59,800 nucleotides of DNA from Aurantiochytrium sp. KH105. Taxonomy: Eukaryota; Sar; Bigyra; Thraustochytrida; Thraustochytriidae. A program made the translations under genes and the position numbers. Positions 34,757 to 59,721 of this stretch are shown piece by piece. How positions within the stretch are numbered: position 1 is the first letter of the stretch; each line of letters starts with the position of its first letter. Where the stretch lies: the NCBI GenBank assembly GCA_003116975.1, contig BGKB01000264.1, forward strand, positions 1 through 59,800. The letters are read 5' to 3'. The notes below the pieces were generated by a model. That model saw nothing but the letters and a program-made list of their open reading frames with translations. It did no database searches and was not told where the DNA came from.

Positions 34757-37700
34757 ATGACTCCAACTATTTGCGTGCGTAAAACTAGGTGTTGGTCGAT
34801 GATCATGATGCTAGCTTACATATCATCAATAGCCTGCTCATCTGCTTCCACACCGCAACTTGCCTGTTTCCTGGGAGCACGTGATATCCAGGATGCAACA
34901 CTCGACATACGCTCACTTGCAACCTGCACTCCTGGGCAGCCGATGCTAAATACCGACTGCTGGAACGTTTCCACGCCGCAGGCACGAATCTTGTGCGAGC
35001 ACTTCCTTCAGCAACGAAGCAAGCAAATGGATGACAACGCGAGCTGGGAGGACCCTTGCAACGCCCATGAACACATGCTTCGGTACACAGACGTGTGCTC
35101 TACAACGCAAGACGCAGCAGCCGGTTTGTCTCGTGTGCTGCCGCGGACGCGACGTTTCTCGATGCAAAGCGTGGATGCGACGCCCTCGATGCACCGCAGC
35201 GCGATCTGCGAAGGATGCGCGTATGCTGGCAATCAGGGCAATGGTGCAACTCTTATTCTCAATGACCCGCTGGGGGCTCACGCCCATGTAGATAGCCAGA
35301 TGATTGGGTCGAACCGATGGTCAGACTTTATGCGAACTTCAGGTCTTCCCATCTTCACAAAAGCCCAAGTCGTCACGTCGTCAACCCCCATGGTCCGGTG
35401 CGCGCGCCGCGTCTCGCAGCCTGCAATCATCTTTGATCTTCTTGGATGGCATGTGGGCCACCTCATCATAGACGTCTTGGAGGCCCTTTACGAGGCGATG
35501 CGCGATCTGCGCGATAGAGGCAAAGAGCCGCTACTCTTCATTGACGTCGCCGACAAGGATAACTTGCGCTTGTATTCTGGGACGCTCATGTCTAATTTAG
35601 TCTTTGGGCAGACGCGGCAATCAACGTTTTCGCTTCTGCGGCATTTCTCAAATTTCACAATTCACTCGAAGCGAGCGCTCGATCTTTTGCCAGGCCTCAC
35701 CTGTTTCGACGATAGTGTACAGATTCAACTCGATGTCCAAGACACCTTTTCTGTGCGCGGTCCTGATCTGAGTGGCCTTGCAGCCAGGCGGCAGCATTAT
35801 TCGGCTCTGCGCTCCTTCTTGACTGAAGCGGAAGGAATTCGTCAACCCGCACCACAAGCACAACCTCTTGCGACGCCTCGGCGTGTCACGGTCGTGAAAA
35901 GGGCTGGGTCACGCATTGTGACGAATTTCGACGCGGTCGTGGACGCCATGAAGCAGGTGGACAATGTTGTCATACGTGTCGTGGCGCTCGAAAAAATGGC
36001 ATTTGCGGAACAAATGACTCTTTTTGCGCAAGAAACCGATGTGCTCGTGTGCCAACAAGGCACAGCAGCACACAATGCAATGTTCATGCCGGAAGGTGCA
36101 TCACTTGTGCTTTGGATGCAGCCAGGATGGTGTGCTTGGCACTGGCAGTTCACGTCACAGGCAATGGTCGGCTCGCAACGCGCAGTCGCGGTCTGTCAGT
36201 CCCCCGAGGTGGCTCCGTTGCAAAGTATAGAATTTCCCGTGCGTTGGGGCCTAAAGAGCTGGCGCCAGGGACCTTGGTGGTCAAAAGACGTTTCGATATC
36301 TGTGAACATCACCCTCGCGCAACATGCCTTACGCCTCGCACTATTGGCCGAAACGCACGAATCCTACGGGGCTCCGTTCCTTCTCGGTAGCGATTTGCGT
36401 GAAGTCGAGCCGGCGGCTTTTGCTGAGGAACCTCTTGAAAACGATCGAGGGAGTGAGTGTGAAGAAGACCAGGCTCTGTCTGTGCGACCCGTGTTAGCAC
36501 AATTTGACACTGCCGTGTCTCACCCTGATGAACCCGTCGTCGTGTACAAGGCCGTGTTTGAAGCCGCGTTCCGCATGCCAGACGTCCAGACATTTCCAAG
36601 CATATCGGAACAAGAAACCTTCATGGCTGCTTCAAGAATTTGCGTTCGATTGTGGAGATCTGACACATGCCAAAGCCGTAGCGGCCAAGCAAGAGAAGCT
36701 GCCCATGAGTTTTCGTGTTTTGCGAGCGAAATTTTCAACGAGTTTGCCTCGCTAGACTTTCGCATCGAAGACTCAAGCGAGGACAGCGGGTGGGTCATTG
36801 AGGCGTGGTTTGAAAGCGATGCAGCGCAGGAAGAGCATGGGGTTTCCAAAAGGGCGTTATATCAAAGGCTGATGCCTGCGCTTGCGGGCAAATTTCGACT
36901 GTCAAGACCAGTCTCTGTAGGTAGTAGCAGCGTGCCCGTTCGGACTTTAGCGGATCTGCAAGCGGCTGTTGCGCAGGATTGCAAAGGCGACGTAAATTCG
37001 TGCGCATGCGTAGCACTCGCTCGAAGGTATGGCGAGCAACTCGCCCAAAGTGCAGCGGTCGAGCGCGCAGGATTGTGGCCACCGCCGCTTCACGTGCCTC
37101 GGATCGAAACCCCGTTTGTCTTCCTTCACCTTGAGAAAACAGCGGGCACATGTTTCCGCAACATTCTTGATCAAGTATCGCAAGCCGACCCTAAAGTGCA
37201 GGCCTTTCTACCGTGCCATGGCGGCGTCCCGTGCATGACCTTCTCCATGTCCAATGCTCCGCCCTCGTCAAGCGTGATCGGCGGCCACTTTGAATTTGGA
37301 GCGTGGAAACTGCTGTTGTCCCCAGGCGCACAAGCGTACTGCGCAACAATCCAGCGACATCCGGTGGCGCGGGTGATCTCGTTTTACTACGAACGCGTGT
37401 TTCCTTCGCTTCAAGTCAGATTGAATGAGCTGCCCGAGGCCAATCTCACGTTTGTGATGGAGCAGTGGCGGGGGTCTGCATTCGGTCGTTGGCGCGACGA
37501 AGGTCTGTCGAATGCCGGATGCAAGATGATGTGCGGCATTCGCGAGTACCGCGGCTTTCTTCCGGAGGAGTCCCCCTATCCTCAGTCTCTTGAAGCGGCA
37601 GAATGCACGCCAGATTTGGCGGTGCGACGCCTTGAAGATGAATGTCTGATTGGGATGCAAGAGCGCTGGGAGGATACCTTGCAGGTGTTTTCATACTTTT

Positions 37701-37912
37701 TGCCATGGGCTTCTGCTGCGTTGCGTCAAGGTTGCCCGGCGACGACGCACGGGTCGAATCGGCGCGCAGTGGTGTTTGAGACGATGGAGACGCTCTCCGA
37801 CACGGCACGGCGCGTAATCGAAGAGTACAATCAGTGCGATCTTGCGTTGTATGCGCGGGCACAAGAAAAGTTTGAACGGCAACTTCGTGTCGTGCAATCC
37901 CTTGGTAGTTGA
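34757..37912 (+). CDS. Bifunctional GT61 glycosyltransferase + sulfotransferase
   Basis: A Golgi-type protein of 1051 residues. The N terminus (MIMMLAYISSIACSSAS, near 15-31) is a signal peptide or type II anchor. Residues about 190-500 resemble GT61 (DUF563) transferases. They contain RRVTVVKRAGSR near 375, then FAQETDVLVCQQGTAAHNAMF and MPEGASLVLWMQPG near 425-455, corresponding to the family's G-x-H-G-A-x-L-x-N-x-x-F-x-P region, here with Gly-Thr-Ala-Ala-His. A linker region of about 280 residues has no assigned domain. Residues about 785-1050 resemble Sulfotransfer_2-type enzymes: 5'-PSB-like FLHLEKTAGTCFRN near 787 and 3'-PB-like QRHPVARVISFYYERVF near 865. PAPS-dependent sulfation of a glycan made or extended by the same protein is inferred. 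It converges on the F-box/hydroxylase gene. Confidence 0.8.
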   Translation: MTPTICVRKTRCWSMIMMLAYISSIACSSASTPQLACFLGARDIQDATLDIRSLATCTPGQPMLNTDCWNVSTPQARILCEHFLQQRSKQMDDNASWEDPCNAHEHMLRYTDVCSTTQDAAAGLSRVLPRTRRFSMQSVDATPSMHRSAICEGCAYAGNQGNGATLILNDPLGAHAHVDSQMIGSNRWSDFMRTSGLPIFTKAQVVTSSTPMVRCARRVSQPAIIFDLLGWHVGHLIIDVLEALYEAMRDLRDRGKEPLLFIDVADKDNLRLYSGTLMSNLVFGQTRQSTFSLLRHFSNFTIHSKRALDLLPGLTCFDDSVQIQLDVQDTFSVRGPDLSGLAARRQHYSALRSFLTEAEGIRQPAPQAQPLATPRRVTVVKRAGSRIVTNFDAVVDAMKQVDNVVIRVVALEKMAFAEQMTLFAQETDVLVCQQGTAAHNAMFMPEGASLVLWMQPGWCAWHWQFTSQAMVGSQRAVAVCQSPEVAPLQSIEFPVRWGLKSWRQGPWWSKDVSISVNITLAQHALRLALLAETHESYGAPFLLGSDLREVEPAAFAEEPLENDRGSECEEDQALSVRPVLAQFDTAVSHPDEPVVVYKAVFEAAFRMPDVQTFPSISEQETFMAASRICVRLWRSDTCQSRSGQAREAAHEFSCFASEIFNEFASLDFRIEDSSEDSGWVIEAWFESDAAQEEHGVSKRALYQRLMPALAGKFRLSRPVSVGSSSVPVRTLADLQAAVAQDCKGDVNSCACVALARRYGEQLAQSAAVERAGLWPPPLHVPRIETPFVFLHLEKTAGTCFRNILDQVSQADPKVQAFLPCHGGVPCMTFSMSNAPPSSSVIGGHFEFGAWKLLLSPGAQAYCATIQRHPVARVISFYYERVFPSLQVRLNELPEANLTFVMEQWRGSAFGRWRDEGLSNAGCKMMCGIREYRGFLPEESPYPQSLEAAECTPDLAVRRLEDECLIGMQERWEDTLQVFSYFLPWASAALRQGCPATTHGSNRRAVVFETMETLSDTARRVIEEYNQCDLALYARAQEKFERQLRVVQSLGS

Positions 37913-38205: not shown

Positions 38206-40491
38206 TTACCAGAACCAGTTGGTAATAGCAACGCGGCCATGAAATGATGGGCGAACCTCGTGGTCCAGTAGTCCACTCAAAAAGACGACGAGACGGCCCG
38301 GCAGGGGCCTCAGGTCAAGGACTGGCTCAGAGGGCAAATGACTCAGCCACAGACGAAGCTATAGATGTACGCGTGCAGGTTCGAGGAAGAAAAAAGGATG
38401 AACAAGACAGAAAGCGTTAGTATGATGGGTCGAACTGGAAAGCGAACGGTGGCAGTGGCCCCGTGAGCGCGTGCGATAAAAGAGCGAGAGCAAACTTACC
38501 TTGCCTCCGTGCGATTCGTCCCAATTCGGATTGCAATAGCAAATAGCAGATATTCTGCGATTGTCGGTAATCTTGGTGGCATCGTCCGGCGTCGCATCTC
38601 GGTGCCGACGGTAGCTCTCACCTTGATCCGGATAAAAAGCAAGCTGGGCCTCCCGGCCACCTTGAAGCTTGACAACAGACCCAAGTTCCTCATATAGTAG
38701 TGTAAATTGGTCCATGACCCCTGAAAAAGGCGGCTTGGAGCCTGGCGGCACCTCTCGGTTGAGCCACAACAAGCAGTCGCCGCGGGCAGACGGCGGGTCG
38801 CCCCGCATCATGAAGAACGATGAGGGCTCGGGAAGGCCAAGCTTCTCGAGCTCGTCGGCAGGAAGATTCAGGACAGAGTTTGTCATTTTCACAAAGTCCA
38901 CACAGCGCTGAAAGACGGCTCGAACGGCCCCCTCCGAGATGAAGTCGTCGATAATGCAGAAGCCGTTTGTGTAGAGGCTTGCGACGCGTTCCGACGTCAA
39001 AATCTTGTTTTGGGTCGCCTCTGCCACGCTGCAGGCCGCGTTCCATAGAGGGAACCGCAGCACGCGGCTACAGAAGGCAAATTGGTTTTCCACCAGATTA
39101 ACAATGGCATTGAGCGCATCCTGTTTCTGATGATAAAAGTCTTCGCTTCGAGAGGACCCCGACAGGATGGCAAGTCGTTCTGCAACTTCCTCGGACTCGG
39201 CGTCCTCTGGGTCAAAGTCGTTCTCGCCGACGCTAGCGGACTGTAATTTGTCTTGTTCGCGGAACGCGGCGTCCTCGTTCTTGCTATGCGTGCTGTTCTT
39301 GAGCCCGCTGCTCACGCTACTGCTGCTGCTACCGATATTTTGCGGCGCGACAGCTTCTTTGCTAATCGTACTGCTCCGACTATTGCTACGTGAGGCAAGA
39401 GAGGTGGCTGCAGCCGTCGAAAACCCCTTGATGCCGGTGGCAGTGCTGCGACTCCCTGCGTTCGCGGCGAGCTTTTCGTGCTGCTGCTGTTCGGCAGCAG
39501 ATTCGGAAAGAGCCATCTCCACGTCTCCGTCATCCGTGCTGGCGTCGTGAGCCTTGTGCAGCTGGCGCTGCTGGCGCTTTTGCTGCTGCTCTTCGCTCTG
39601 GCCCCTGTGCCCGCTTTTGGCACCGACATGACGATTTGCCTCTTGGGCGGTTTCGTCGGAAGGGGCCATGTCTTCGTCTTCTTCGCCCTCGGAGCGGGAC
39701 CGCGTGCACGGAATGCTCATGGCGTCGCCATGTTGCTCTCGGGACTGGCGAGATGCGCCTCTTGGACGGCGCTTGGCATCGTCCGTGCGCCAGTCCCCCA
39801 TGCTCGATGAGTCTTCCATGAGATCGTCCGTACCGTTTGCCTTCATCTCGCCATCGGCGTGTTCAAGGTCCTCGTCCACGTCGTCGACTTCGTCTAGATC
39901 CTCGTCGTCCACGTCATTTCCGGCTCCGCTGTGGATGCTCGAGTTAACGGCGCCCAGGTACACTTGGCGCTGGCACGAGCGCGCGGCGTCCAAGAGCGCT
40001 GGCGGGATGTCGAGGGCTGAGATGCAGGCCTCGCTGCTCTGAAGGATCAGGTCCGAGAACTCTGGGGGTAGGAGCTTCATGCAGAGCGTGTCCACCACCA
40101 TGGACCCGATCTGTTGCGTGCTTCTGTAGAGCAAGAGCGCCGAAAGTTTTCCGCGCAGGAAAGCGAGCTGGACCAGGATATCCCACTCTTGTGCGGTGTA
40201 AGGCGACAAGCTCGAATACCGTTTGCAGAGAGCGACCCAAGGGTGCACGACTGCGATCGTGGGGCGCCGCAAAAAGTCGTCGGCGTCATGGACATCGTAG
40301 CACGCCGAGGCGGCGCGCATGAGGTGGGCTGTCACGAGGGCGAAGACGCGGCACGACGTCCGAAGCGCCTGCGCCTCGCGCGCGTCGAGGAAGCCCATCA
40401 CCAGGCCGAAGGCGCTGCCTGGGAGCGCCAGCAGCTTGCAGGGGCTTCCCTTGCCCTGCTGCTCCCCGCCTGCCATGCTGGCGTCCGCCAT
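38206..40491 (-). CDS. F-box + PHD/EGLN-type prolyl 4-hydroxylase fusion, two exons
   Basis: A 714-residue protein. Exon 1 is 40491-38500 (664 codons) and exon 2 is 38358-38206 (50 codons plus stop). Residues about 20-55 read as an F-box: LLALPGSAFGLVMGFLD then LRTSCRVFALV, matching the LP...fLd...LR..CR.f pattern. Residues 195-470 are acidic, Gln/Ser-rich and disordered. Residues about 506-714 are a 2-oxoglutarate/Fe(II) dioxygenase of the EGLN/PHD type. They contain NGFCIIDDFISEG near 509, iron ligands His630 and Asp632 in RRHRDA, and CYCNPNWDESHGGK. Across the intron the domain continues LRLWLSHL, PLPGRLVVFLSG, iron ligand His697 in DHEV, and the 2OG-binding Arg706 in GRVAITNWFW. Without splicing the frame runs into the intron and loses the last iron ligand. 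Skp1 hydroxylation (as by Dictyostelium P4H1/PhyA) is the inferred activity. Confidence 0.87.
38359..38499 (-). other. Predicted intron in the F-box/prolyl hydroxylase gene
   Basis: Donor AAG|GTAAGTTTG at 38500/38499 and acceptor CATCTATAG at 38359. The length is 141 nt, phase 0. The unspliced frame ends at the TAG of the acceptor itself. Joining the exons continues the EGLN pattern SGGILRIFP...RLLFFWSD...HEV without a gap. Confidence 0.88.
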
Positions 40492-40569: not shown

Positions 40570-40594
40570 NNNNNNNNNNNNNNNNNNNNNNNNN
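40570..40594. other. Assembly gap (25 N)
   Basis: A run of 25 undetermined bases inside an extremely GC-rich stretch. The true gap length may differ. Confidence 0.99.
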
Positions 40595-40839: not shown

Positions 40840-40842
40840 TCC

Positions 40843-40881
<39 letters not shown>

Positions 40882-40897
40882 GCTTTCTTTCTTTCTT
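40840..40897. repeat. (CTTT)n tetranucleotide microsatellite
   Basis: About fourteen CTTT units with two single-base interruptions near 40881 and 40896. Confidence 0.9.
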
Positions 40898-41454
40898 CGT
40901 TTCTCTCTTGCCGCGCCTCGCGCCGCCTCGGCTCCCTGGCCGCCCTCCCTCCCTGCCCCCGCTGCTCCCGCGCCTCGCCTCGCCGCGCCGCCGCGCTCCC
41001 GCCTGCCGCTTCTGCTCTGCGCTGCGCTGCTGCTGCTCCGCCTGGCTGCTTGCTCGGCTCGCTTGCCCCTGCTTGCTTGCCTGGGTCTTCCCCCCTGCTC
41101 GCGGCCGGGCTTGTATAGACGGGGCTCAAACGCTCGTTTGGGGGAGAGAAAGGGAGCCAGAACTAGTGCGGACTAGTGCAGCAGCTGTGCGCTGCGCGCG
41201 GATGTGGGCGGAGATCATGGGGCAGCTCGGGAGGCAAAGAGCGAAGAGCCTGAGAGCACTGTCGACCCGAGCTCGAGGGGCGCCAGCCAGATCCAGCTAG
41301 CCATGAAAGCAGATCCAGCTAGCCATGACTAGTTTTGCCGCGTCTATGGAAAAGAGCAAAGTTGCAAGACTGGTTTTTCGTGTTTTTTGATTTTTCCTTG
41401 TTGCATCAGACAGACACCATACGACCGGGTGGCCGGCCGCACGCAAGGCCACGC

Positions 41455-41509: not shown

Positions 41510-41669
41510 TGGCCCGACCTCAGCTTCGTCTCCGCCGCTCCGGAGGGAACAAGCACGCAAGGGCAGCAGAAGAGCGTGACCGACTCGTAAGAAAAGATAT
41601 ACATACTGCAGGCAGAAGAAAGAGCGCGCAGACCCAGAATAACAAGCCGTGCTTTCCTCGTCCAGCATC

Positions 41670-42872
41670 ATGCCGGCAGCGGCTAATGGCAGCAGAGAAC
41701 TCACTCTGCGCACGACGACGGGCGACGTGAGCGCGACCGTTTCCTGGAATGAGGATCGTATCTCGCAAGATCGCGTCAGCGAGTTCGCGCGCCAGGAATT
41801 TGGATGGGAGAATCCTCGCATTGTGCATGAGGGCGCTGTTCTCCTGCCCGGGGCGACCATTGATCTTACACGTAGCAGTTCCGTCTTCATCATCGTCCCG
41901 CTGCGGCCGTTCGCCGCACAAGATCGACCCAACGTACCCTCCGGCGCTCCATCACCTGCGGCACCCACGCCATCTACGTCTTCCGCATTGGCCGGATCAA
42001 ATGCAGCAAGTGCGCTGCCTGCAGCTGCGCCATCTTCGCCAGCTGAGCCATCATCGCCGCCGGCGCAGACGCCCAATGCGGCCCCGCAAGAGCCCAAGAC
42101 GTGCAGAATTTGTCTCGAGGAAGAGGGCGAAGAGACCGTGGAGGCCTCGACGACGACCACGGGAGGGTTCTGGCACGATCCGAGCTGGGATTCGCGCTTC
42201 ATTGCGCCTTGCATGTGTCGAGGGACAATGAAGTACGTGCACATTGGCTGTCTTAATCAGTGGCGGCTTCGCGCAGCTTCGGGATCGGGATTCTTCAAGT
42301 GTCAACAATGCGGCTTCGAGTATCTCGTGGCAAGAACTCATGCTGCTCAAGTCATCGACATTCTCGCAAGCGACCAAGTGTGTGCCGTCGTGGCAGCCGT
42401 CTTGCTCGTACTTTGCATCGAGCTTGCAGCCGTGCTCCTCGACAAGTCAGGTGGCGGCCGCTGGGTACGGCAATATGCCACGCTGCCAATACCGCGCGAC
42501 ATTCGCAAGGTCTTTATCAAGTACTTTGGTGTCGCCTCTCAAGCAAGAATGGAATATCACTGGAGCGGACTCGTCGCAGTAGGGGCAGTTGGCGCGGCAC
42601 AACATATCGCACAACTTGTGGACCGCCACTTTTGGCGAGTGCGGAACCACGTCAATCCAATCGACATGTTCTGGGACAATCCCAACGTTCTATTCATCGG
42701 CGGATCGTTAGCAACGCAGACGCACGAGTCGCTCTCGCGAAGCTTGCTGGGTGTTGGCCTCATTTACTGCGCGGTTGAAATCTTCAAGGCCCTCAAGAGC
42801 GAAACGCTACGAATACTCCAGACGCTTGGTGAAAGGGTGCTCGAGCCACCCCCCTCCGCAACTGCCAGCTAG
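41670..42872 (+). CDS. RING-CH (MARCH-type) membrane E3 ligase with possible ubiquitin-like N terminus
   Basis: A 400-residue protein from ATG 41670. Residues about 10-75 could be a ubiquitin-like beta-grasp: ELTLRTTTGDVSATVSW, then WENPRIVHEGAVLLPG and SVFIIVPL. An Ala/Pro/Ser-rich linker follows. The RINGv domain (about 144-218) has the C4HC3 pattern: CRICLEE, PCMCRGTMKYVHIGCLNQW and CQQCGFEY. An acidic insert of about 25 residues lies between the first and second Cys pairs. Two hydrophobic segments follow (near 235-260 and 360-380), as in MARCH/Doa10-related ligases that ubiquitinate membrane proteins. A candidate AATAAA for this transcript is at 43046-43051. It is head-to-head with the F-box/hydroxylase gene. 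Confidence 0.9.
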   Translation: MPAAANGSRELTLRTTTGDVSATVSWNEDRISQDRVSEFARQEFGWENPRIVHEGAVLLPGATIDLTRSSSVFIIVPLRPFAAQDRPNVPSGAPSPAAPTPSTSSALAGSNAASALPAAAPSSPAEPSSPPAQTPNAAPQEPKTCRICLEEEGEETVEASTTTTGGFWHDPSWDSRFIAPCMCRGTMKYVHIGCLNQWRLRAASGSGFFKCQQCGFEYLVARTHAAQVIDILASDQVCAVVAAVLLVLCIELAAVLLDKSGGGRWVRQYATLPIPRDIRKVFIKYFGVASQARMEYHWSGLVAVGAVGAAQHIAQLVDRHFWRVRNHVNPIDMFWDNPNVLFIGGSLATQTHESLSRSLLGVGLIYCAVEIFKALKSETLRILQTLGERVLEPPPSATAS

Positions 42873-53488: not shown

Positions 53489-55015
53489 TCAGCTGGGCGT
53501 CGCAATGGCAGATCTGTCGCCACTGTCGTCCATTTCCACATCGGACTCGTTCTCAGACTCACCCGTATCAACATCGCCGCCGTCATGAGAGAGATTGGGT
53601 CCGGATACGCCGCGACCACTCGGGTCATCGCCAAGACTTTCACTCATTCCAGCTGGATCATCACTCAATTCCATGCTAGGCCCAGCGTATATGATACCGC
53701 TTTTTTGCAGACTGCTGCGAAGGATAGAAGCCTCGAGGTCAAGCGCGAAGCGCTTGCCAACCCGCAAGGTTTCGCGAAAGGCCATTTCTCGTGGATTCTC
53801 GCTTGTTACGTCAAGAAATCCTGACTCCCGGTCGATCGTGGCTGATATCTCCTTGTCAACAACAAGCTTGGCAACGTCGCGCTCGATTTTATCGCGGGAA
53901 TTATGAAACACGGTGGCCATAAGGTCGAGCGAGGCCGAGGAAAAGGGTAAAATATACTGCTTGAGGCAGCGTCTTTGAATGCTGCGAGCGAGGTCCGCCC
54001 AGCATTTGCGCAGATACAAATCCTCTGCAGCCGAGACACGGAGTTTGGCGAGCCCTTGCGAAAGAGCCGCGTACCGCGATCCAACAAAGTCACTCAGCAT
54101 CTCTCGCACAGACGGCACGGCCTCGAGCATTGTCCGAAAGCTTGAGTGCGAGAGCACGCGACTGCGCAGCTCGTTCCTATCAAAGCTGGCGAGAGCGCAC
54201 ATCCCCCCGTAGAGCGCCACGTCTTCACAGGTGATGACGTCTCTAAAGGAGGTCCCTAACTCAAGGCCCACATTCAAAAAGCTTACGGCGGCCGCCTGGT
54301 AGTCTTCCTGCCACATGTTCACCAGGCCAGAGGCCGCGTGCAGCTTTGCGGCAGCTTCTTGGTCCACTTCTTGGCGGCCCGCGAGAATGGTTGTGGCGCG
54401 GTTCACCCAGGATGGAACATTGGCAAAGTTTCCTGCGCCGAGGCTGGCGCGGATCACCCGAAGTGCAGTATCGAGGTGGTGCGCGCTGTCAGAGCCATAA
54501 TCGCGGGCGCGCGTGTACGATTTGAGCGCTTCATTAAACAGGCCCAACCGGTAGTGGAGGTCGCCGACTGCGTTGAGACACATTCTGATCTTTTCTTTGA
54601 CCATCTCAGCGCGAGCTGCGTTTCTTTCTTGCTCCAAGCGCTGTAATTCCAGCTCCAACTCGTGTTTGCGTTGCTCGGCCCAGGCTTTGTCTGTTGCCAA
54701 GCTCAAGCCTTCACCTGCACCCGCCCCTGCAAAAGCGAGGTAGGCATCGGGGACATCATCTTCACGAGCGCACTGCATCCCAACCTCCACAACTTGCTTC
54801 AGGCGCGCCGCATCGCCGCTCGCCTTGGCGGCCTCCAGCGCCGCGTGCAGCCTCTGGACCTTGGTGAACCCGGAGTACCGGTTGATCGCATCGCGCAAAT
54901 CCGGGGCCCCCGCATCTCGCACCCCGCCGCCGCTGCTGCTGCTGCTGCTGCTGCTGCCGCCGCCGCCGCCGCCTTCTCCCGCGCCCTCGCGCGTCGCCGC
55001 CGCCGCCGCCTCCAT
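53489..55015 (-). CDS. CSN1: COP9 signalosome subunit 1
   Basis: A 508-residue PCI-domain subunit of the COP9 signalosome, which removes Nedd8 from cullins. After a low-complexity Gly/Ser N terminus (1-32), the family-specific YSGFTKVQRL lies near 47. The helical repeat region contains EKIRMCLNAVGDLHYRLG and ALKSYTRARDY near 185, then VALYGGMCALASFDRNELR and VLSHSSFRTMLE near 285-305. The PCI winged helix follows at about 330-420 (LKQYILPFSSASLDLMATVF; DKEISATIDRESGFL). The acidic C-terminal tail is short. These signatures separate CSN1 from the related proteasome lid subunit Rpn7. The spacing to the divergent LC8 gene is 523 nt. Confidence 0.96.
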   Translation of the reverse strand: MEAAAAATREGAGEGGGGGGSSSSSSSSGGGVRDAGAPDLRDAINRYSGFTKVQRLHAALEAAKASGDAARLKQVVEVGMQCAREDDVPDAYLAFAGAGAGEGLSLATDKAWAEQRKHELELELQRLEQERNAARAEMVKEKIRMCLNAVGDLHYRLGLFNEALKSYTRARDYGSDSAHHLDTALRVIRASLGAGNFANVPSWVNRATTILAGRQEVDQEAAAKLHAASGLVNMWQEDYQAAAVSFLNVGLELGTSFRDVITCEDVALYGGMCALASFDRNELRSRVLSHSSFRTMLEAVPSVREMLSDFVGSRYAALSQGLAKLRVSAAEDLYLRKCWADLARSIQRRCLKQYILPFSSASLDLMATVFHNSRDKIERDVAKLVVDKEISATIDRESGFLDVTSENPREMAFRETLRVGKRFALDLEASILRSSLQKSGIIYAGPSMELSDDPAGMSESLGDDPSGRGVSGPNLSHDGGDVDTGESENESDVEMDDSGDRSAIATPS

Positions 55016-58175: not shown

Positions 58176-58869
58176 CGTCGCGGCGGCCGGGAGGGTGGGT
58201 TGCTTGCTCCTGCCAAGGTCCGCGGTTCGTTTGCTTGCTCGTCTGCGCGCGGCGTGTTTTGCTCAAAGCGACCTAACGCCGCCGCGGAGTCGGACCCGCG
58301 CGATGGGCCTGTTCTCGGGAGTCCGGGCGTTGGGTCTCTTCCCCTCTTTCCTGCGCGCGCGGCTTCCTCTTCCTCCCTCTTTCGAGCATTGACACGAGTT
58401 GATTATTAGAGTGAGTCCAATCGGAGCGAGCAGCCCGAGCACACGGCCTGGGACGCAGACCATCCCGCGGCCGCGCGCAGTCGGCGAACTGCGCGAGGAA
58501 GCGAGCGGGAGCGGGCGAGCGAGGGAGGGAGAAGCGCCGCGGCGCAGCGCAGTGTCGGAGCGGCGTGCAAGAGCGAGCACGAGTCTCTCGAGCGGACCAG
58601 CAGAACCGGCTTGGTCCCGCAATTCTTGGGCACGCGAGCAAGCAAGCGAGCTAGCAAACTCGGGGCTGGAGCCTGTCCAGAGGCGTGGGGCGCGTGGCAG
58701 AAGAAACGAGCGCAACAGATATACAGGCGAACAGCAGCGAGGGCAGGCGGCGGCAAGCGCGAGGAGCTTACTCGTACAGGCGAGGATAGAATACCTCGTA
58801 AGCAAAGCGAGCACTGTGCCTTGCGTTCGTCAGTCAGTCAGACAGTCAGTCAGTCAGTCAGTCAGAGGA
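58176..58869. promoter_or_regulatory. Head-to-head spacer, MON1 / RING-CH ligase
   Basis: A spacer of 694 nt ending in a CAGT array (58829-58864) that reaches to within six bases of the ATG at 58870. Upstream frames lack an ATG in the ligase frame. No gene is seen. Confidence 0.55.
58829..58864. repeat. (CAGT)n microsatellite in the 5' leader of the RING-CH gene
   Basis: About eight CAGT units with one interruption (CAGACAGT) immediately upstream of the start codon, so probably within the 5' UTR. Confidence 0.9.
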
Positions 58870-59721
58870 ATGGACACTCTTGAAGCTGATGGTCAGCCTT
58901 CGAGGTGCTGCAGAATCTGCCTTTGCGGAGACGACAGCGGCAATGACAAAGATGTCACGAGTCTGGATGCGGCAATGAGAGAGACCACACGCGACTGTTA
59001 CGGCGACAGGGCTTCCAAGGGCATCGATGAGCTCATTGCACCGTGCGCATGCAGAGGAAGTTGCCGTTGGGTCCATCGAACATGCCTCGACGCGTGGCGA
59101 GCAAAATCCTGTGCGTCAAACGCGGTTTCAGCGTGCACTACGTGCAAAAGTCCTTTCCTTCTCGAGCCGTCGAAAGAGGCTGCATTGATCATGCGGGCTG
59201 AGATGGCATCCACTGCGCTTGGCGTTCTGACTTTAGGCATGATCTTTCTGTCCCATCTGTATCTGTGGTTCTCCTACGCACTTTACGAGTGGATTTCTGC
59301 GTCTCTCGTTAGATTATTAGGAGGTCTCGCGTATGTGTGCCTCATGATGGCATGGCGTAGTGAGTTCCACTGGAGCCGAGATTCACGAGCCTTCCTGACC
59401 GTTCACGCGTTTCCACTCGCTCGACTTGTTTGGCTCGCGTGTGCGTCTTGGGGTCTTCCGGCCCCGAATGTGTGCATCTCGGCGAGTCTCGAGAGTCTCG
59501 GGGTTTGCATGCTTCTCTGTTCCATGGACGATTTTCGGGCGCTCTTGACCACTTTTATTCACACACGCATACTCCATGTCGCGTCGTCGACCTGCCCTTC
59601 GGCTTTCCCATGGGCGCAAGGAGACATGAAAAAACAAAATGCCTTGCCACGCGTTCAGTGTCGCGCGCGCCTCCTGTGTGAAGAAAAAGCAGCATCAGAG
59701 AACAGATCGCTTCGGTGGTGA
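58870..59721 (+). CDS. RING-CH (MARCH-type) membrane E3 ligase, second copy
   Basis: A 283-residue protein from ATG 58870. The RINGv domain (about 14-95) has C4HC3 spacing: CRICLCGD, then an insert of about 35 residues, IAPCACRGSCRWVHRTCLDAW, and ACTTCKSPF. Four or five hydrophobic segments follow (about 112-140 with LGVLTLGMIFLSHLYLWF, 145-160, 180-195 and 205-222), so the protein is anchored in a membrane with the RING probably in the cytosol. It is clearly the same family as the 400-residue ligase at 41.7-42.9 kb, but it lacks that protein's N-terminal ubiquitin-like extension, and the sequences differ outside the RING. They are therefore relatives rather than recent duplicates. Only 79 nt remain to the window edge. 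Confidence 0.88.
   Translation: MDTLEADGQPSRCCRICLCGDDSGNDKDVTSLDAAMRETTRDCYGDRASKGIDELIAPCACRGSCRWVHRTCLDAWRAKSCASNAVSACTTCKSPFLLEPSKEAALIMRAEMASTALGVLTLGMIFLSHLYLWFSYALYEWISASLVRLLGGLAYVCLMMAWRSEFHWSRDSRAFLTVHAFPLARLVWLACASWGLPAPNVCISASLESLGVCMLLCSMDDFRALLTTFIHTRILHVASSTCPSAFPWAQGDMKKQNALPRVQCRARLLCEEKAASENRSLRW

Follow-up and report, generated by a model that had tools for sequence, protein, structure and literature searches.

An F-box-like segment and a PHD/PhyA-class prolyl hydroxylase predicted in one protein of the thraustochytrid Aurantiochytrium sp. KH105

Aurantiochytrium sp. KH105 carries a gene whose spliced product joins a prolyl hydroxylase of the PHD/PhyA class to a conserved N-terminal domain, part of which is likely, but not proven, to be an F-box. 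The gene lies on the minus strand of a 59,800-nt stretch of contig BGKB01000264.1, the whole of which was analysed and is called the window here. The best explanation of this layout, which in our judgement could go either way, is a PhyA/PHD-class hydroxylase that would be tethered to Skp1/SCF by its F-box-like domain and would hydroxylate Skp1 or an SCF client. The features on which the argument draws are as follows.

38500..40491, minus strand: exon 1, codons 1-664, start ATG at 40491-40489 (ORF list, spliced translation)
38359..38499, minus strand: intron of 141 nt, GTAAGT...CTATAG, with TACTAAC at 38422-38416 (read from the DNA; the homologues P0002-P0005 continue across it)
38206..38358, minus strand: exon 2, codons 665-714 and stop, containing H697 and R706 (spliced translation, alignment)
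39952..40434, minus strand: conserved N-terminal domain, residues 20-180, made up of the F-box-like part and a remainder (alignment)
40327..40434, minus strand: F-box-like segment, residues 20-55 (profile-profile comparison for; Pfam and the family-profile PDB search against)
39157..39924, minus strand: acidic/Ser/Gln low-complexity linker, residues 190-445 (alignment)
38206..39144, minus strand: PHD/PhyA-class prolyl hydroxylase region, residues 450-714, with the intron inside (Pfam, PDB relatives, protein database, tree)
38596..38604, minus strand: iron ligands H630 (38604-38602) and D632 (38598-38596) (translation, alignment)
38233..38262, minus strand: iron ligand H697 (38262-38260) and 2OG-binding R706 (38235-38233) (translation, alignment)

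Gene model and splicing

Joining 40491-38500 to 38358-38206 yields a protein of 714 aa with the C-terminal end ...RVAITNWFW. The first-pass annotation of this DNA had proposed that the protein is complete only after splicing and that unspliced models miss a 50-codon second exon, and the spliced translation of 714 aa confirms it: the unspliced ORF (40491-38359, 710 aa) runs into the intron, and its stop is the TAG of the 3' splice site. The intron is of the GT-AG type, with TACTAAC located 57 nt upstream of its end and with a pyrimidine-rich tract.

The public protein P0001 of Hondaea fermentalgiana is without eleven residues (LRLWLSHLPSE) at the junction in the alignment, apparently owing to a different 3' splice site 33 nt further in. 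These residues are kept in P0002 and are represented by LRLWLSDVSKK in P0003 and by LRLFCCHLPNQ and LRLFGCHLPNQ in P0004 and P0005, respectively. Because P0002-P0005 all have residues aligned there, the two-exon junction 38499/38359 is preferred over an acceptor of the P0001 type. In P0003, which comes from the MMETSP transcriptome collection ('type:complete'), both halves are held within one 461-aa ORF, which argues against two separate genes. Judging from these comparisons, the gene is real, and the two-exon model of 714 aa is the best available.

The gene was found once by searches of the 76.0-Mb genome (367 contigs), a count that is a lower bound, and many loci of this genome occur as near-identical pairs, consistent with two haplotypes. 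Upstream of the start codon there are a run of 25 N at 40570-40594 and a stretch of AAAG repeats at about 40840-40900. The position of the earlier Met of the Hondaea protein is AAG in the window.

Protein layout and close homologues

The arrangement of an F-box-like segment followed by a hydroxylase is common to the five homologues aligned with the window protein, while the linker between them (residues 190-445) is weakly conserved and much shorter in P0003. The orthologue P0001, annotated 'Egl nine-like 2', is from Hondaea fermentalgiana, a near relative of this thraustochytrid, and shows 96% identity in the hydroxylase region and 97% across the full alignment. Outside this small family and P0006, no F-box-PHD fusion was found in the protein databases (6, 4, and 4 matches) by a search that requires shared 5-residue words and that in one run scored only the 7997 best candidates; nor was such a fusion noticed in the titles and abstract openings among the literature matches listed. 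Nothing in the window was matched by Rfam or by a tRNA scan, and an NCBIfam scan gave no useful match.

The hydroxylase domain

Pfam 2OG-FeII_Oxy_3 (PF13640) matches residues 616-714 at 1.6e-17, with 64.6 bits against a curated cut-off of 27. The first-pass annotation had named His630, Asp632, His697, and Arg706 as the residues of a 2OG/Fe(II) hydroxylase; all four stand exactly as it gave them, and none varies across the alignment of the window protein with its five homologues. R570-G571-D572 is also invariant in the six sequences and aligns with the RGD of the solved EGLN, PPHD, and DdPhyA chains. The closest solved relatives in the PDB are PPHD (59.4 bits), Dictyostelium PhyA (55.7), and EGLN2 (52.4), to the fragment of which the window protein is 34% identical. 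On this evidence we regard the assignment of a prolyl-hydroxylase domain as certain.

To which branch of the class the enzyme belongs is a finer matter. When the DdPhyA fragment was compared by BLAST with 19 other sequences, its best scores were with P0003 (85.5), P0004 (81.6), P0006 (79.7), and P0005 (77.8), and the window protein and P0002 (both 77.4 bits) exceeded, by small margins, L024 (74.3) and L022 (63.5), two hydroxylases of the same genome. By these scores the enzyme appears slightly nearer to Dictyostelium PhyA than to animal EGLN. In a tree of 20 rows, whose bootstrap had not settled and whose support is rough, the window family formed one clade (93/99), and L024 grouped with human EGLN1/2 (85/89), which the window protein did not, while DdPhyA, PPHD, L022, and P0006 had no firm placement. 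The earlier label of 'EGLN/PHD-type' therefore stands in the wider sense of the PHD/PhyA class and not in the strict sense of EGLN, for which L024 is the better fit in the tree. In the alignment with the solved chains, the C-terminal end of the window protein also falls in the column where DdPhyA finishes. According to passages of PMC7864055, DdPhyA stops directly after the last core strand and is much shorter than other structurally solved prolyl hydroxylases, although the C-terminal helix is also missing from PPHD and OGFOD1, and not from PhyA alone.

The F-box-like segment

The first-pass annotation had placed an F-box at residues 20-55, and the evidence for it is divided. At E<=10, neither the full window protein nor residues 1-189 alone were matched by any Pfam F-box model, and an F-box scan of the N-terminal domain alone found one of the five family members, P0004 (F-box_4, 0.044; F-box-like, 0.057). 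All ten F-boxes of the genome that were scanned do match the Pfam models, but they had been chosen because those models had found them.

Profile-profile comparison gave a different picture. A profile of the five family sequences matched a profile of 12 F-boxes of the same genome with a score of 25.2 (76%), whereas none of 200 column shuffles reached this value (maximum, 15.3), the reversed profile scored 11.1, and the 63 other windows of the family alignment scored at most 11.6; these sliding windows began at residue 61, with rows of >=20 gaps dropped and windows of <3 rows skipped. True F-boxes, when left out, score 24.7-39.7 against the same own-genome profile. Against this profile the single sequences scored 17.0 (window protein), 12.3 (P0002), 17.6 (P0003), 16.7 (P0004), and 15.3 (P0005), and 400 random single windows from 26 ORFs reached a maximum of 14.6, with six of them attaining the 12.3 of P0002. 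With a second F-box profile, built from nine families aligned by MAFFT, the match was 72.8% for the short segment as query and 45% for the whole N-terminal domain.

This nine-family profile found 43 distinct sequences in the PDB, 26 of them named as F-box and 10 more being Skp2 or KDM2A/B, although its matches include at least one non-F-box protein, ribosomal protein L18A. The reverse search of the PDB, with the profile of the family's own F-box region, gave four weak matches and no F-box chain, and single-sequence PDB searches with two F-boxes of the genome were uninformative. In the aligned register, LP, FLD, LxxxC, and an aromatic residue fall at the F-box positions, with P0003 being without the LP. 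An absence of any F-box score in profile searches, which the first-pass annotation would have held against its own reading, was thus seen with the Pfam HMMs and not with the profile-profile comparison. Taken together, we consider it likely, but not proven, that the segment is an F-box.

The N-terminal domain might instead be an unrelated, lineage-specific domain with some other partner, in which case the protein would be a hydroxylase of the PHD class extended at its N terminus. This is rather unlikely in our view, although the silence of Pfam on the window protein and the lack of an F-box chain among the PDB matches of the family profile speak for it, as does residues 56-180 (window 39952-40326), where the domain runs on for ~125 conserved residues past the F-box-like part with invariant residues of its own. 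It is opposed by the in-register profile-profile match, which exceeds the shuffle, window, and reversed controls, and by the top Pfam matches of the five members, which are F-box_4 and F-box-like, in P0004 only.

It is far less probable still that the LxxxC segment is a BC-box of the SOCS/VHL type, binding Elongin C instead of Skp1. Measured against what we take to be the BC-box consensus, ALRTSCRVFA of the window protein and ALRASCRVFA of P0002 do fit, and the L and the C are invariant in the alignment, but the last position is broken in P0003 (SLHSTCNVFR) and P0004 (RLRATCAALR), and the LP and FLD positions suit an F-box.

A likeness of the later part of the N-terminal domain to the C-terminal region of histone H2B was rejected as homology, being weak and picked post hoc from a PDB-wide scan. 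Its score of 22.6 was reached by none of 100 shuffles (maximum, 14.4); since this match beats its shuffles too, such scores can come from selection, and they call for caution against over-reading.

Candidate components of a Skp1 pathway in the same genome

The first-pass annotation had asked for two companions of a Skp1-directed enzyme, a Skp1 bearing the acceptor proline and a Gnt1 glycosylation enzyme, and candidates for both are present. The best Skp1 (L007, 172 aa; Pfam Skp1, 1.1e-28) has the proline of NDFTPEEE aligned with the glutamate E147 of human Skp1 (NDFTEEEE), which a passage of PMC7864055 gives as the position equivalent to the acceptor Pro143 of DdSkp1. Three Skp1-like ORFs stand in tandem at L083 (G000:C8:486500-496400), the first two with a nearly identical 3' half by eye, and two of the three have the acceptor proline, which, also by eye, is present in the second (ELTPEGE) and replaced by alanine in the third (NLTAEQE). 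About 2 kb past this cluster lies a Cupin_8/JmjC gene without an F-box by eye.

The Gnt1-like GlcNAc-transferase is fused to another P4H. Two near-identical copies, L022 (G000:C74; ORF 238-2283 of the locus, minus strand) and L023 (G000:C174), combine a P4H and a PF11397 GlcNAc-transferase in single ORFs of 681 and 708 aa. The PF11397 part may be a Skp1 Gnt1, and a two-step Skp1-type hydroxyproline-GlcNAc enzyme is possible. When the GlcNAc-transferase part was searched against the PDB, no meaningful solved relative came up, and PF11397 also occurs at several other loci of the genome. P0006 also contains a PF11397 piece and a P4H, in the order opposite to that of L022/L023, and its P4H, which scores 129 bits against the window protein, is the family's nearest outside relative. 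The genome further encodes a JcdI/FBXO13-like protein with an F-box and JmjC/Cupin_8 in one ORF (L060/L061; G000:C7:556572-557612 and its C10 pair).

The P4H that is joined to the Gnt1-like enzyme is a rival candidate for the Skp1 hydroxylase, at least as good as the window enzyme. The window protein could accordingly be an F-box-tethered hydroxylase that acts on something other than Skp1. Skp1 would then be modified by the P4H-GlcNAc-transferase fusion, and the window enzyme would hydroxylate a client, or its F-box would only control turnover. We keep this as a possible reading, if on the unlikely side; it shares some ground with the best explanation, and the odds that we attach to the several readings do not sum to one. 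L022/L023 would unite both steps of the Skp1 pathway on a single polypeptide, and PMC9485057 proposes that the F-box oxygenase JcdI works parallel to PhyA. On the other side, the BLAST scores of DdPhyA are higher for the window clade than for L022, and the P4H of P0006, likewise accompanied by a PF11397 piece, is closest to the window clade.

Conversely, the window enzyme could itself be a Skp1 hydroxylase whose own F-box brings it to its substrate, a one-chain modifier of SCF ubiquitin ligases that is set by oxygen and works with the Gnt1-like transferase, beside a JcdI-like F-box oxygenase. Such docking is plausible because PhyA seems to recognise Skp1 by determinants beyond the active site (a passage of PMC7864055), but it may be counted against it that F-box binding could order and hide the Skp1 tail bearing the acceptor proline. 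We consider this narrower proposal doubtful.

Comparison with known systems

The window protein resembles PhyA of Dictyostelium and Toxoplasma in its PHD-class sequence and its iron- and 2OG-binding residues, in a genome whose Skp1 keeps the acceptor proline, and DdPhyA in particular in where the chain ends. It differs by the added F-box-like domain and long linker, and its activity on Skp1 is putative; to our knowledge, PhyA has no F-box. EGLN1-3, the HIF prolyl hydroxylases, belong to the same superfamily, with the differences that EGLN1/2 group with L024 and that the window protein is without residues after the last core strand.

KDM2A/KDM2B (FBXL11/FBXL10), which are JmjC histone demethylases, likewise pair an F-box with a 2OG oxygenase on one polypeptide. 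The F-boxes in their PDB chains were matched by the nine-family profile, and unlike the window protein they are without a PHD-type domain. Oxygen signalling in Dictyostelium and Toxoplasma proceeds via hydroxylation and glycosylation of Skp1. A link of this signalling with the F-box dioxygenase JcdI is described in PMC9485057. In the same source, JcdI binds Skp1 through its F-box and has an O2-dependent activity, its O2 effect is independent of its F-box, and SCF may lower its level. JcdI/FBXO13 of protists is alike in having an F-box near the N terminus and an O2-dependent dioxygenase in one chain (passages of PMC9485057 and PMC11570480), and unlike in that its catalytic domain is JmjC/JMJD6-like instead of PHD-type and its F-box is confirmed by mutation. 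Pfam gave no JmjC or Cupin_8 match in the window protein, and the F-box-JmjC protein of this genome (L060) is separate from the window gene.

The first-pass annotation knew of no described protein with this fusion. No PHD-type precedent was found in the protein-database and literature searches described above, but with JcdI/FBXO13 and KDM2A/B known, a claim of wholly unprecedented architecture is too strong. What appears to be new is that a catalytic domain of the PHD/PhyA type, instead of JmjC, is joined to an F-box-like domain.

Proposed function

The gene structure, the catalytic residues, the conserved layout, and the proline at the acceptor position of Skp1 are established here; we infer the F-box fold, the binding to Skp1, the substrate, and the oxygen-sensing role of the window protein, and the best explanation would run as follows. 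The F-box-like domain would tether the hydroxylase to Skp1 and thereby to SCF ubiquitin ligases. With O2, 2-oxoglutarate, and iron, the enzyme would then hydroxylate a proline on the SCF assembly, either the acceptor proline of Skp1 or one of an SCF-bound client, and O2 supply would set the modification of SCF or the choice of the clients that are marked. Association with SCF may also control the level of the enzyme itself, as proposed for JcdI of Dictyostelium in part of PMC9485057.

If both halves are functional, oxygen sensing and protein destruction would meet in a single chain. With a PhyA-class hydroxylase that bears an F-box-like domain, one could test whether Skp1 hydroxylases take free Skp1 or the assembled SCF as their target. 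The finding also points to a lineage of thraustochytrids that combines a Skp1 retaining the acceptor proline with a fusion of a P4H and a Gnt1-like transferase.

Genomic neighbourhood

A glycosyltransferase family 61 protein is encoded at window 34757-37912 (plus strand), convergent with the hydroxylase gene. Elsewhere in the window there are two RING-variant (RINGv) proteins, at 41649-42872 and 58399-59721 (both plus strand), and an RPN7 and PCI domain protein of the CSN1 or Rpn7 type at 53489-55015 (minus strand).
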